Positions 2,930 through 11,688 of a stretch of DNA of 64,000 bases are shown here, piece after piece. A program made the translations under genes and the position numbers. The notes under the pieces were generated by a model. The model was not told the DNA's origin and made no database searches. It worked only from the letters and a program-made list of their open reading frames with translations. The DNA comes from an uncultured Succinivibrio sp. Lineage in GTDB: Bacteria > Pseudomonadota > Gammaproteobacteria > Enterobacterales > Succinivibrionaceae. The first letter of the stretch is position 1; the number at the start of each line of letters is the position of its first letter. The DNA lies in contig CACZXZ010000003.1 in the NCBI GenBank assembly GCA_902785325.1, positions 19,357 through 83,356 on the forward strand, read 5' to 3'.

Positions 2930-4189
2930 CTAAATTCCTAACTTCTCTTCTAAGAAGGAAACGATTTTAAATACTGCATCTTTAGCAAAAGATGCATAGC
3001 CTACATTGTCATGAGTGTACACAGTAAGATCTCTAAAATTATGTTTCATCAAATCAAGATCTGCATTAGAAACATAAGAGTCCTTAATCGCACACAGCAA
3101 GGTGGGGACTGTACATTGATTAGAGTTAGACAAAATGCCTTGCTCTTTTAAGGAGAAAATTTTAAATCGTGGGGTTAGAATATCCCAATTGCTTGCATCT
3201 AAGTTTAGTCGATTACAAAATGAAGATCTTAGACACAAAGGCATGGAATCTAAGTATTCTTTGTCAGAAAAAATTGAATGCACGTAAGGTCTGTTTAAAA
3301 TAATTGCTCTAACCTTATTAGGTTGCAAGATACAGGCTCTAAGACAAGAGGCTGCACCTATATCACCGCCCATAAGAGCGATTCTTTTGGCATCAACATA
3401 AGGCAAACTTGCTAGATGATCAATAGCTTTCTCCACAAAGGCTGAATAATGATCATTTAAGTTTAATTTTTCACAAGCACCGATGCCTGGCATCTCAATT
3501 ACGAACATTGCAATGTTCTTTGGCTTAAAGAAATCGTTATAGATGCGGTAATAATTAGCAATACTATTACCATAGGAGCACACACAAATTACACAAGGTA
3601 ATTGTTTTTCATTCGTAGGTAAATGAAGATAACCTGTAACCTTTTTATTATCTACTAAGAAGGTTTCTTCTCGAAGCTCTAAGGAATTTGGATCAACCTT
3701 ATACATTTCCTTATAGTAACGACGACATAACACATCAGCATTACTTGCCTGAGAATCACCTTTTAAATTTGGGTATGCTGCAATAGCAAAATATCGTGAG
3801 GCCATACGATATTGATGACTTGCTTGTACAAAATCCCCCTTTTCTATTGCATCATGAGCAATTTGAACTCTTCTTTGGGCAATAGTGCAAAACTCGTAAA
3901 TCCAATTACCAGCACCATACTCTTTTACAGTATCTAAACACTCTTGCCTTGAACGAGGATTTTTAGATACACAGATATTAGATAAAGCTAAATCAATATC
4001 TAAAGGATTGCCACCGCCTAGAGTCCAAAGGAAACGGTGAATAGGACGATAAAAATCTTTTTCAAAACCATAAGCAAGATCAACTCTAGATAGTTTTGGC
4101 AGAGGGCACCCACTATTAGATATGACAGAGGTTTCTAAAAAATCAAACCTAGGTTTAAACAATTCTTCACTAAGATTTTCGTAAGTCAT
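2930..4189 (-). CDS. frsA: FrsA-like alpha/beta-hydrolase-fold protein
   Basis: Resembles FrsA (YafA), a cytoplasmic alpha/beta-hydrolase-fold protein linked in E. coli to the fermentation/respiration balance through binding of unphosphorylated EIIA-Glc. The N-terminal half has NLSEELFKPRF and the GNWIYE and AAYPNLKGD motifs; the hydrolase fold starts near residue 185. The nucleophile elbow reads GGDIGA, with Asp276 where hydrolases have Ser; E. coli FrsA also lacks Ser there, so activity is uncertain. Length 419 against 414 in E. coli. An AAGGACGG ribosome site precedes the ATG. It leads a tight unit with proB and proA, transcribed away from the box-rich region to its right. Confidence 0.88.
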   Translation of the reverse strand: MTYENLSEELFKPRFDFLETSVISNSGCPLPKLSRVDLAYGFEKDFYRPIHRFLWTLGGGNPLDIDLALSNICVSKNPRSRQECLDTVKEYGAGNWIYEFCTIAQRRVQIAHDAIEKGDFVQASHQYRMASRYFAIAAYPNLKGDSQASNADVLCRRYYKEMYKVDPNSLELREETFLVDNKKVTGYLHLPTNEKQLPCVICVCSYGNSIANYYRIYNDFFKPKNIAMFVIEMPGIGACEKLNLNDHYSAFVEKAIDHLASLPYVDAKRIALMGGDIGAASCLRACILQPNKVRAIILNRPYVHSIFSDKEYLDSMPLCLRSSFCNRLNLDASNWDILTPRFKIFSLKEQGILSNSNQCTVPTLLCAIKDSYVSNADLDLMKHNFRDLTVYTHDNVGYASFAKDAVFKIVSFLEEKLGI

Positions 4190-4278: not shown

Positions 4279-5238
4279 TTTTCCACAGGTTAAAAATAGG
4301 AGTTTTCCACAGTTTCCACACTATTCCACAGAGTTTTCCACAGCTATTGTGAAAAAAGTGTAAAAATCATTGTGGGTTTAATACAATTTTTGAAAATGAA
4401 ATGCTAAATTTAAGTTAAAGAAACGTTAATACATCAAAACTCACTAAATTTTAAAAAAGTCAACAAAATTTCTTACTTTATGATCTAAAAGATATTTTTT
4501 AATAAAATTTTCATTTGTTACTATGTTTCGACAAAATTTAAGTAAAATTCTTGTCAATAGATATAATTTATAGGTTGATTTAAGAGCTAAATTGTAAATT
4601 CACCATGGTGAAAAATTTGGGGCATAAAATAACCAATTTAGACTAAATTCCACTATTTTCACAAAAGTTTTCCACAGCTGTGGAAAACTTTTTCCACAGT
4701 CTTACTTTTACAGTTTAAAAACTAATTTAAAACTCTATCTATTTGTTTTTATTATAATTTACTTATATTATTCACTTTCTTTGGATACGTTTTTTGAACT
4801 ATATCTCATCGCAAAAAATTTAATATTTTTATTTTCCACCAAGTTTTCCACAGGTTGTTTAAAACTAAAAAATATCCATTCAAATTTTCAAAAATGAAAG
4901 TTTAGTTATTTAAAGAAATTTTTATACCGTTTATAAGATACTAACATACTGATTTCTTGATATATTTTATTAAATTTTTAACGCTATTAAGTTTGTTTTC
5001 TCCAAAACTTCATTTTACTTAAAGCCGATTTTCTTCAAGAATTACTTTTTTCCACACCTTATTTTCTAAGCTCTGGTGCAAAATTACTTTATCTATTTGA
5101 TTTTACAATAAGTTTTGATAGTCAAGCACTTTTTAAAATTTGTTTTCCACAGAGGCAAAAGGTCCAATTTATCCTAATTATCCACAGTTTTCAACACAAT
5201 CCACAGAGTTTTCCACAGCTGTTGATATTTTTTCCACA
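4279..5238. repeat. Cluster of DnaA-box-like 9-mers
   Basis: TTTTCCACA is present on the plus strand at 4279, 4303, 4334, 4668, 4690, 4844, 5048, 5143, 5209 and 5230, and on the minus strand at 4679-4687. An exact TTATCCACA lies at 5178-5186. Near matches are GTTTCCACA at 4312, TATTCCACA at 4322, TTTTCCACC at 4832, TTTTCAACA at 5188 and CAATCCACA at 5197. Nearly all share one orientation. TTATCCACA is the classical strong DnaA box; TTTTCCACA differs at one position and, as I recall, is the consensus reported for cyanobacterial DnaA. Confidence 0.75.
4663..4692. repeat. 30-bp perfect palindrome made of two convergent DnaA-like boxes
   Basis: The left half AAAAGTTTTCCACAG is followed directly by its exact reverse complement, with no loop. 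Each arm contains a TTTTCCACA box, and a third box starts at 4690. The absence of a spacer favours a protein-binding site over an RNA terminator. Confidence 0.7.
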
Positions 5239-5408: not shown

Positions 5409-6974
5409 GTGAATACCAAACCTAAATCAAGACTCTTGCGCTCTGGCGCTGTAACAGCGTTTGCTACCTTTTTATCAAGAATTCTAGGCATGCTAAGAGA
5501 TATTGCCATAGCTTCTATCTTAGGTGCTTCTTTATCTGCTGACGTTTACTTTTTTGCAAACAGAATTCCTAACTTTTTCCGTCGTCTATTTGCTGAAGGT
5601 GCTTTTTCACAAGCCTTTGTGCCTGTAATGAGTAAAACAAAAGAGTTAAACGATAAAAAGAAACTAGACGATCTTTTAAATAAAACTACAGGTACCTTAG
5701 CTACCATTGTGTTAGGGGTTACTTTAGTTGGTATGTTAGGATCCCCTATTTTTACAGCAATCTTTGGTTGGGGTTGGTTTCAGTCCTATTTAAACGGGGA
5801 CAGTGATAGCATTAAGTTTGTGGAAGCTAGTTATCTTTTAAAAATTACTTTTCCATACCTTTTCTTTATAACCTTAACTGCCATTACTAGTGCTATCTTA
5901 AACGTACATGGTAAGTTTTTAATTCCAGCAATTACCCCTTGTGTCTTAAACATTACCTTAATTACCACTGCTTATCTTGTAGCTCCTTACTTTAAAGATG
6001 CTAACGAGGTTTTAGCTTACGGTATGGTGGTAGGAGGTGTATTGCAACTATTATTGCAAATACCATTTATTATCAAATTAAAGATCTTTATCATTCCAAA
6101 ATTTGATTGGCACCATGAAGGGGTAACTAAGATTAGAAAGCTAATGCTTCCTGCTATTGTAGGTATCAGTGCAAGTCAAATTAACTTAATTGTAAACACA
6201 GCTTTAGCTTCTTTCTTAGCAACAGGAGCCATTTCTTATCTATATTATTCTGACCGTTTACTAGAGTTTCCTATAGGTATTTTTGCAGTTGCTATTTCTA
6301 CTGTGATTTTACCTGCCTTATCTAAAATTGATATTGAGGTAAATAAAGACAAATATGTAAAAACTTTAGAATGGGGTATTAAGTTAGTACTACTTTTAGG
6401 TATCCCATCCATGTGTGGCATTATTGCCTTAAAAGAGCCTATCATCAGAACTATCTTTATGCGTGGTGCTTTTACAAGCGAGCATGTACTTTTATCCTCA
6501 GCATCCCTTTTAGCTTCAATTTCAGGCCTTTGCGCCATCATGCTAGTAAGAGTTTTAGTGCAAGGTTTTGCCGCTATTGAAGATACTAAAACTCCTGTAA
6601 GATGCTCTTTAATAGCAATTTTTTCAAATATAGTGTTTAACTTAATTCTTGTTTGGCCTTTAGATTATGTAGGTTTAGCTTTATCAACAGCTCTAGCTGC
6701 CTTTGTAAATCTGTCACTACTATTCTACTTTTTACACAAAAAGAGCATTTATACCTTATCTTTAAGTACTATTCTTTTCATTGTCAAAGCACTTTTAGCA
6801 GGTGCGCTGATGGGGGTAGTGTTAAAGTATTTAGCCCCTGAATTTGACGCTTGGGTTAAGATGACTACTTTTGAAGCTGCTTGCTATTTAGCTTTGTTTG
6901 TAAGCATTGGCTCTGTAATTTATGCTGCTACTTGCTTGCTCTTAGGTATCAAGCCATCAAGTATCAAAATGTAG
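5409..6974 (+). CDS. murJ: Lipid II flippase MurJ
   Basis: Integral inner-membrane flippase of the MOP superfamily that moves lipid-linked peptidoglycan precursor across the cytoplasmic membrane. Length 521 fits the family (E. coli 511). The N-terminus has ILGMLRDIAIASILGAS and DVYFFANRIPNFFRRLFAEGAFSQAFVPV, hallmark residues of MurJ, followed by about 14 hydrophobic segments. The start is GTG at 5409 with AAAGGA upstream. It reads away from the box-rich intergenic region and appears to be a single-gene unit. Confidence 0.96.
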   Translation: MNTKPKSRLLRSGAVTAFATFLSRILGMLRDIAIASILGASLSADVYFFANRIPNFFRRLFAEGAFSQAFVPVMSKTKELNDKKKLDDLLNKTTGTLATIVLGVTLVGMLGSPIFTAIFGWGWFQSYLNGDSDSIKFVEASYLLKITFPYLFFITLTAITSAILNVHGKFLIPAITPCVLNITLITTAYLVAPYFKDANEVLAYGMVVGGVLQLLLQIPFIIKLKIFIIPKFDWHHEGVTKIRKLMLPAIVGISASQINLIVNTALASFLATGAISYLYYSDRLLEFPIGIFAVAISTVILPALSKIDIEVNKDKYVKTLEWGIKLVLLLGIPSMCGIIALKEPIIRTIFMRGAFTSEHVLLSSASLLASISGLCAIMLVRVLVQGFAAIEDTKTPVRCSLIAIFSNIVFNLILVWPLDYVGLALSTALAAFVNLSLLFYFLHKKSIYTLSLSTILFIVKALLAGALMGVVLKYLAPEFDAWVKMTTFEAACYLALFVSIGSVIYAATCLLLGIKPSSIKM

Positions 6975-10521: not shown

Positions 10522-11688
10522 CTAATCAAGCTTTAGGGCTTTAATAGCACTACTAATTTCTTCTACTTGTAAGTCTGATAAACTTGCGGTTATTGATAAT
10601 CTTAATCTTGCACGACCTTTAGGCACTGTAGGATGTCTTATCGGCATCGCATAAATTTTTCTTTGTTTAAAAAATTCATAAGCTAAAAGTGCTTTTTCAT
10701 TAGTAAAGGTAAGTAGTGGAATTATTTGCGAGCAGGACATATTCAAAAGTCCAGCCTCTGTGATCTCTTGGTGTAAATATTCACAAATCTTATTTAACCT
10801 TTGACGTCTGTCCTGACACTTTTGCACATAATCTAACATAAAAGCATTATGCTCAAAGCTTAGTGGAGATAAAGCTGTAGAAAAGATGAGCTCTCTTGTA
10901 ACATTGATAAAATATTCTCTTGCTACCTCATTACAAATAAGAGCAGCACCTTGAGAGCCTAAAGCTTTACCAAAGGTTGTAAGGATAAAATCCACATCTT
11001 TTACATAACCTAAACTTGCACACAATCCTGCGCCATTATCGTTATAAAGCCCAAAGGAGTGAGCCTCATCTACATACAAATAGACTTTGTCAAAACGCTT
11101 TTTGATGGCAACTATCTTTTCTAAATCACACTTGTCGCCATCCATACTAAATATAGCTTCTGTGACCACAATAATTTGATCATACTCTTCATAATATTGA
11201 GTGATAAGCTTTTCTAAATGCTCATAATCATTATGAGCAAATCTCAAGGCTTTACCTTGAGCATTTTGCATGCCGTTGATAATGGAAGCATGAGCTAATT
11301 TGTCAGCTAAAATTAAGGTATCTTTTGTAGCTAAAGCGGCAATAACGCCAGAATTTGCTGCAAAGCCACTATTAAAAAACAAAGCTTTTTTAGAAAATAA
11401 CTGTTCTATTTTGCTTTGCGCTTTTGCATAACTTTCCTGAGCACCTGTAAGTAAAGGAGATCCTGAGGAGCTTAAACGTATAGTTTTAGGGGAAACTGTG
11501 GATAAAAACTCTTCTGTAAGCTTTGTATCGCTTGCTAGGCCTAAATAATCATTTGAAGATAAATTAAGATACTTCTCCCTATCAATATAGATGTAATTAC
11601 CAATCTGCTTTTTACTTACAATAGATCTTAGCTGACCGATACTTTTACGGTCATCTAAAAGAGTTTGCATTTTCTGATATAAATTCAT
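10522..11688 (-). CDS. bioF: 8-amino-7-oxononanoate synthase BioF
   Basis: PLP-dependent enzyme joining pimeloyl-ACP and L-alanine, the first ring-forming precursor step of biotin synthesis. Length 388 (E. coli 384). Seen are NDYLGLA near 46, RLSSSGSPLLTGAQ, DEAHSFGLY with Asp207 and His210 contacting PLP, and TTFGKALGSQGAA with Schiff-base Lys241. First gene of bioF-bioG-bioC, divergent from pepD across 224 bases. I looked for a BirA-type operator there and saw none. An isolated TGTGGATAA (a minus-strand DnaA consensus) at 11497-11505 inside the gene is probably chance. Confidence 0.95.
   Translation of the reverse strand: MNLYQKMQTLLDDRKSIGQLRSIVSKKQIGNYIYIDREKYLNLSSNDYLGLASDTKLTEEFLSTVSPKTIRLSSSGSPLLTGAQESYAKAQSKIEQLFSKKALFFNSGFAANSGVIAALATKDTLILADKLAHASIINGMQNAQGKALRFAHNDYEHLEKLITQYYEEYDQIIVVTEAIFSMDGDKCDLEKIVAIKKRFDKVYLYVDEAHSFGLYNDNGAGLCASLGYVKDVDFILTTFGKALGSQGAALICNEVAREYFINVTRELIFSTALSPLSFEHNAFMLDYVQKCQDRRQRLNKICEYLHQEITEAGLLNMSCSQIIPLLTFTNEKALLAYEFFKQRKIYAMPIRHPTVPKGRARLRLSITASLSDLQVEEISSAIKALKLD

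Follow-up and report, generated by a model that had tools for sequence, protein, structure and literature searches.

An array of DnaA boxes upstream of murJ

The window (the whole stretch of DNA analysed, 64 kb in length; bases 19357-83356 of contig C3 in a draft genome of 2,279,682 bases and 101 contigs) contains an AT-rich, non-coding interval that separates a gene for an frsA-like esterase from murJ, the gene for the lipid II flippase (Table 1). Both genes read away from the interval, as the first-pass annotation had described. The five neighbours scanned with Pfam are ABC-type, ProB, FrsA-like, MurJ and Usp proteins, and proA, recognized from its translation, adjoins proB. Rfam and tRNA scans of the 64-kb window returned no matches.

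All 11 copies of TTTTCCACA in the window fall inside the interval, ten on the plus strand and one on the minus strand (4679). None of 100 shuffles of the window reached 11 copies (mean 0.85, maximum 5). The related 9-mer TTATCCACA occurs once in the array, at 5178, with two further copies in the window at 11497 and 25314. These counts match those first reported for the interval, as do the spacings of 31 bp (4303-4334 and 5178-5209) and 21 bp (5209-5230) and the scarcity of GATC, of which the interval has one (4482).

The clustering is equally apparent on the scale of the genome, where a count of the 9-mers had been proposed as a check. By hand count, the draft holds 75 TTWTCCACA sites (45 TTTTCCACA and 30 TTATCCACA), and 12 of these lie within the 960 bp of the array, where an even distribution would place ~0.03. 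The one other group within 1 kb anywhere in the draft consists of just three sites, beside mnmG. Same-strand pairs of TTWTCCACA no more than 30 bp apart number six in the array and one beside mnmG, with none elsewhere in the genome; a reversed control pattern gave no same-strand pairs within 30 bp in the whole genome. A further word, TTTTCCACAG, has 15 genomic copies, ten of them in the array.

Table 1. Window coordinates of the array, its elements and the flanking genes
Feature	Position	Strand	Basis
frsA-like esterase gene, left flank	2930..4189	-	Pfam PF06500, 246.7 bits
DnaA-box array: 11 TTTTCCACA + 1 TTATCCACA, AT-rich, non-coding	4279..5238	.	Counts; conserved upstream of murJ in relatives
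Left end module, boxes 4279, 4303, 4334	4279..4342	+	Sequence; 7-species alignment
Conserved non-box word TTTTCATTT	4508..4516	+	Top-scoring 9-column stretch, 7-species alignment
Middle element: head-to-head pair 4668 (+)/4679 (-), then 4690 (+)	4668..4698	.	Sequence; alignment
Single conserved box	4844..4852	+	TTTTCCACA or TTTCCCACA in 7/7 aligned species
Single box, not conserved	5048..5056	+	Exact solely in the window's species among 7
Right end module, boxes 5143, 5178 (TTATCCACA), 5209	5143..5217	+	Sequence; alignment
Last box, not conserved	5230..5238	+	Exact in 1/7 aligned species
murJ (lipid II flippase), right flank	5409..6974	+	Pfam PF03023, 423.4 bits; TIGR01695, 409.9 bits

Architecture of the array

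Eleven of the 12 boxes lie on the plus strand. The two end modules look like copies of one another: each has strong boxes interspersed with weaker sites that share the CCACA core, and in each a 31-bp step leads from the second to the third strong box. In the left module, the two weaker sites (4313 and 4322) lie between boxes 4303 and 4334, and the cores step by 9, 10 and 12 bp; in the right module, the weaker sites lie between boxes 5178 and 5209. The word TCCACAGAG is conserved in both modules, at 4325 and 5200. In the middle element, the head-to-head boxes are separated by two bases, with their starts 11 bp apart.

A terminator-like hairpin can be formed at 4677-4700 of the window from the minus-strand box at 4679 and the box at 4690 (one found, 0.3 expected from shuffles). 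It is probably a by-product of the inverted boxes.

Conservation in related genomes

A murJ match was present in 58 of 60 genomes, our own included, and the best 30 loci were compared. Sites (TTWTCCACA plus TTTCCCACA) were counted over a maximum of 1.5 kb upstream of murJ (0.7 kb in G033), and five or more were taken as an array. Comparison of related genomes had been suggested at the outset, and it shows that the array recurs: among the best 30 of 58 loci, it is present in 15 of the 18 from the genus (own included) and in three of the 12 from other genera (G020, G021 and G029). The same-genus exceptions, G006, G007 and G018, have two, two and one sites at murJ, respectively. The relatives that carry names are metagenome-assembled genomes, an uncultured Succinatimonas sp. 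and two Aeromonadales bacteria, which we take to be rumen or gut bacteria; a taxonomy look-up places Succinatimonas in the Succinivibrionaceae, Aeromonadales.

The left neighbours (frsA-like, proB and proA) are kept in all eight other same-genus loci that were laid out and in G014, with one or two extra open frames between frsA and the array in G002, G008 and G013. G020 and G021 have other genes on the left, which leaves murJ as the constant neighbour of the array.

An alignment of seven species (G000, the genome of the window, with G001, G002, G009, G012, G014 and G015) reveals that conservation is concentrated in the boxes: 71% of columns inside boxes agree in at least six of seven species, compared with 25% outside. 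Nine of the 12 boxes hold their position, the exceptions being 4690, 5048 and 5230. All three boxes of the left module do so, with one-base variants at 4303 in two of seven species. In the middle element, box 4668 is found in all seven (with T or C at base 4) and the minus-strand box is TTTTCCACA in six, whereas box 4690 is exact in just two.

The word TTAWCWTATTG, which was taken from some of the arrays on which it was then scored, occurs 34 times on the plus strand and twice on the minus strand across 18 upstream regions, where 8.1 would be expected for the two strands together. It is absent, at up to one mismatch, from the window's own array.

Location of the replication origin

The first-pass annotation had offered two identities for the interval, a replication origin or a DnaA-titration locus of the datA type, and had counted against the former that dnaA, dnaN and gidA were not nearby. 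All three are on another contig, C9, where recF, gyrB and rnpA are also near dnaA (dnaN, recF, gyrB, rnpA and mnmG, i.e., gidA, were named by reading their translations). An intergenic region of 0.73 kb on C9 (53645-54376) is bordered on one side by mnmG, followed by rsmG-, parA/parB- and atp-type genes, and on the other by an efp-type gene (ParB excepted, these names again come from translations). The start of dnaA is ~13 kb away. GC skew accumulated along C9 in bins of 5 kb reaches its minimum at 55 kb, beside the mnmG region, and rises afterwards.

The closed genome of G014 (same genus; 3,468,545 bases) gives the same picture. Its skew, sampled in 37 windows that measure 20 kb each and together cover 21% of the genome (35 of them enter the cumulative sum), has a minimum near mnmG (1.946 Mb) and a maximum near 0.2-0.3 Mb. 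The array lies at 3.083 Mb, 1.14 Mb from mnmG or ~0.64 of the replichore, and the sampled windows on both sides of it have positive skew. The sampled windows contain 12 copies of TTTCCCACA, nine of them in the array. Thus, the skew minimum is away from the array, which adjoins neither mnmG nor dnaA; GC skew and gene context both point to the mnmG region, and identity of the array with oriC was rejected. An E. coli-type oriC sits upstream of mnmG, and the origin half of the earlier claim is not supported.

By reading, the DNA upstream of mnmG in G014 (L059) contains two similar origin-like repeat stretches separated by ~1 kb, which may represent an oriC that is duplicated or in two parts.

Base 4 of the boxes and residue 463 of DnaA

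The direct boxes switch base 4 jointly between species, being either TTTTCCACA or TTTCCCACA. In the alignment they are TTTTCCACA in G000, G002 and G015, TTTCCCACA in G014, G009 and G012 (with single-base variants), and mixed in G001. We scanned all 14 genomes that have at least five direct boxes and a readable DnaA helix. Three are T-box genomes, with T:C ratios at base 4 of 10:0 (G000), 7:0 (G002) and 8:0 (G015). The other 11 are C-box genomes: 0:7 in G004 and G020, 0:8 in G011, G012, G014 and G029, 0:9 in G009, 0:6 in G021, 1:7 in G010, 2:6 in G001 and 1:4 in G013.

Of the 451 DnaA columns without gaps, four distinguish the two groups. Residue 463 is the sole one in the DNA-binding domain, the others being residues 37, 58 and 62. 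It is Thr, Ala or Ser in the three T-box species, and among the 11 C-box species it is Glu in ten and Gln in one (G013). When G013 is left out, six of 452 columns separate the groups and only residue 463 is also invariant in the C group. Residue 463 had been picked by eye from the recognition helices before the full column scan. Two control proteins also have separating columns (MurJ 3 of 355, MnmG 1 of 628), so kinship alone yields a few. On a tree of MurJ and MnmG (27 rows; 13 labelled, without G013), box type needs at least two changes, and label shuffles reached the observed change count in 79 and 88 of 500 trials. With so few forced changes, the strength of the association lies in which column is found rather than in the number of events.

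When aligned to the E. coli domain-IV chain 1j1v, residue 463 falls on the His of DHTTVLH, which is His439 of E. coli DnaA. The E. coli residues that contact the box are R399, H434, T435 and H439, and two sources report H439 as base-contacting (PMC5043019, PMC7561715). In contrast to the E. coli protein, this position here has Glu (once Gln) where base 4 is C, and Thr, Ala or Ser where it is T. It would be chemically sensible for a carboxylate to recognize cytosine through its amino group. Literature searches on DnaA H439 and on initiator-box coevolution found no report of such a pairing.

Among the genomes outside the scan, those with fewer than five direct sites have T:C ratios of 0:1 (G006, Asp), 1:2 (G017, Glu), 1:1 (G030, Glu) and 1:0 (G018, Thr), and those without a readable DnaA helix have ratios of 1:3 (G005), 0:2 (G007), 0:9 (G008) and 1:4 (G016). 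Box types are mixed in G001, G013 and G017. Boxes at oriC depart from the code in several species: near the origin, the Glu-type species G004, G010, G011 and G014 retain TTTTCCACA alongside a single TTTCCCACA, and Ser-type G015 has one TTTCCCACA there. The minus-strand middle box of the array stays TTTTCCACA in Glu-type species as well. A Glu that prefers C but tolerates T would fit these cases.

DnaA diverges more than its neighbours do; between G000 and G014 its identity is 62%, compared with 91% for MnmG and 76% for MurJ. Unusual DnaA frames occur in several genomes. Two are giant, with 2669 residues in G062 (C21; L200:805-8814) and 2892 in G032 (C2; L201:1350-10028). Both end in the ATPase and helix-turn-helix domains of DnaA, preceded by ~2,300-2,500 residues without a Pfam match at E 0.01, and the G062 frame starts with a DnaA N-terminal match. 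In the same genus, the DnaA frames of G019, G061, G063, G064, G065 and G066 have 1155-2270 residues and that of G067 has 545. G014 carries a DnaA paralogue of 339 residues (L180:2642-3661; C1:1.915 Mb) that has the ATPase domain and no helix-turn-helix match, as well as a DnaA-like C-terminal frame of 253 residues directly behind an IS605 OrfB/TnpB-type gene (L179:759-2809; C1:3.23 Mb).

The same 9-mers at origins and across the family

In two relatives the array 9-mers are also found on the oriC side. G026, from another genus, has no site at murJ, and 17 TTTCCCACA and two TTWTCCACA in the 1.5 kb upstream of mnmG. G020 has ten TTWYCCACA in 2.6 kb next to efp in addition to its murJ array. Two TTTCCCACA copies no more than 30 bp apart are found in six of 13 sampled genomes of the family and in none of 184 from the other families of the order.

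Species with at least five murJ sites and a readable helix have DHSS where E. coli DnaA has DHTT. The helix reads DHTS in G019, G063 and G066, and DH[ST]T in G023, G024, G025, G027 and G028, which have at most one TTTYCCACA-type pair per genome. Against a simple link between helix and pairs, G032 and G062 have DHSS without any pair. These comparisons across the family are all confounded with kinship.

In G026 (C137; L127:7190-7807), tandem TTTCCCACA units ~34 bp apart, with a longer period of ~169 bp, lie between two open frames.

Candidate partner proteins and comparison with known loci

The genome of the window encodes an Hda-like protein (183.9 bits, cut-off 194.8), IHF-alpha (126.8 bits, cut-off 111) and an IHF-beta-like protein (106.3 bits, cut-off 115). 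No SeqA was found in the draft genome. The IHF consensus TAANNNNTTGATW has no exact match in the window's array and eight one-mismatch matches (3.6 expected; one of 60 shuffles as high), and none of 13 other arrays exceeded shuffles at the 5% level.

The array resembles E. coli datA in being a non-coding cluster of DnaA boxes outside oriC with nearly all of its boxes in one direction; the essential boxes of datA likewise share one direction (PMC5742627). There are several differences. For datA, two consensus boxes and four with one misfit are described (PMC5835720), whereas here 12 near-identical boxes occupy 960 bp. The flanks are frsA-like and murJ rather than glyVXY and queG, that is, tRNA-Gly genes and queG. 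Unlike datA, which is near oriC, the array lies well along the replichore in G014. It also lacks a clear IHF site, and base 4 of its boxes varies between species.

Clusters of DnaA boxes outside oriC are reported to restrain untimely initiation in Bacillus subtilis and Streptomyces coelicolor (PMC5742627, PMC13220808). Those clusters share the position outside oriC, but here there is one large array, with repeated end modules and adjoining murJ. B. subtilis, moreover, is described as being without Hda and IHF, whereas Hda-like and IHF-type proteins are encoded in the genome of the array. Literature searches gave nothing on DnaA boxes together with mviN, nor on such an array under Succinivibrio oriC.

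Proposed function and alternatives

DnaA very probably binds the array, as suggested by the agreement of box base 4 with a recognition-helix residue and by the same 9-mers at oriC. What follows from binding is less certain. The one-way modules resemble datA, and DARS cores differ from the array in order and spacing, which together favour titration or inactivation of ATP-DnaA as the outcome. We therefore read the array, with a probability of roughly 0.6, as a chromosomal DnaA-binding regulatory locus outside oriC, acting by datA-like titration or inactivation. Its initiator-box code would be a naturally altered one. The titration half of the earlier proposal thus survives as the best-supported reading, given the conserved sites, the recognition-helix residue and the 9-mers on the oriC side in two relatives.

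Under the datA-like reading, DnaA would load head-to-tail on both one-way end modules, where strong boxes and the weaker sites between them are 9-12 bp apart, and further molecules would occupy the isolated boxes and the two head-to-head boxes in the middle. The array would then hold many DnaA molecules and possibly promote hydrolysis of DnaA-bound ATP within the oligomer. Passage of the fork would double the array, lowering free ATP-DnaA and restraining re-initiation, a mode of action like that of datA in E. coli or of the B. subtilis clusters.

Two live rivals have to be weighed, neither of which we think likely. DnaA on the array could regulate murJ (or frsA) and thereby couple the building of the cell wall to the replication cycle; the linkage to murJ that persists in G020 and G021 despite different left neighbours would agree with this. 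This seems unlikely: 12 boxes over 1 kb appear to exceed what a promoter needs, promoter-like matches are at the level of chance (5 found, 6.0 expected), and G026 lacks murJ sites yet has 19 upstream of mnmG. The other rival, which we also doubt, is reactivation of the DARS type, in which the head-to-head pair would join two ADP-DnaA molecules, release ADP and raise ATP-DnaA. DARS1 and DARS2 of E. coli share such a pair, and boxes I and II, which lie head to head, are reported to be essential in DARS (PMC10380432); the pair in the middle of the array is conserved. Nevertheless, in the E. coli core, box I is opposed to boxes II and III (PMC5742627), and the starts in K-12 DARS1 and DARS2, read from K-12 DNA, are 14 and 12 bp apart, whereas the order here is +/-/+ with steps of 11 and 11 bp. 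Moreover, the third box is exact in few of the aligned species, and the direction shared by 11 of the 12 boxes is a property of the essential boxes of datA.

Binding by a protein other than DnaA, either MraZ or a plasmid-type Rep acting on iterons, is improbable. MraZ binds GTGG-type direct repeats near cell-wall genes. The array has direct repeats at ~10-bp steps, murJ is a cell-wall gene and the genome has mraZ, but the 0.6 kb around the mraZ start contains no TTTYCCACA, and an MraZ array was rejected because the repeat is absent before mraZ in the 0.6 kb covered. A literature search on MraZ repeats found nothing. No Rep is present among the five Pfam-scanned neighbours, and both variants are at odds with the presence of the same 9-mers at oriC in relatives and with the covariation of DnaA residue 463 and the boxes. 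Finally, AT-richness, many boxes and divergent flanks would suit a chromosomal or second origin, but this is highly improbable with the skew turning at mnmG in both G000 and G014, positive skew on both sides of the G014 array, and dnaA and mnmG on another contig.

Possible initiator-site co-evolution

Beyond the datA-like reading of the locus itself, the covariation of box and residue may reflect a natural, reversible change of the initiator's DNA code across the family, a proposal that we make tentatively and whose chances we put slightly short of even. Glu (once Gln) at the His439 position would be matched by C at base 4. Whenever that residue was lost, in at least two lineages, all direct boxes of the remote locus would have changed to T in concert, the oriC boxes being largely spared. 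On this view the array would preserve a history of initiator and sites evolving together, and would also be a regulator that follows changes in the initiator more closely than oriC does.

Work on remote loci that bind DnaA covers few bacteria, and this array can be traced through a family. It is far denser than datA, and its base changes together with one DnaA residue. It therefore bears on how the specificity of an initiator can shift without killing the cell, and on whether remote sites change before oriC.
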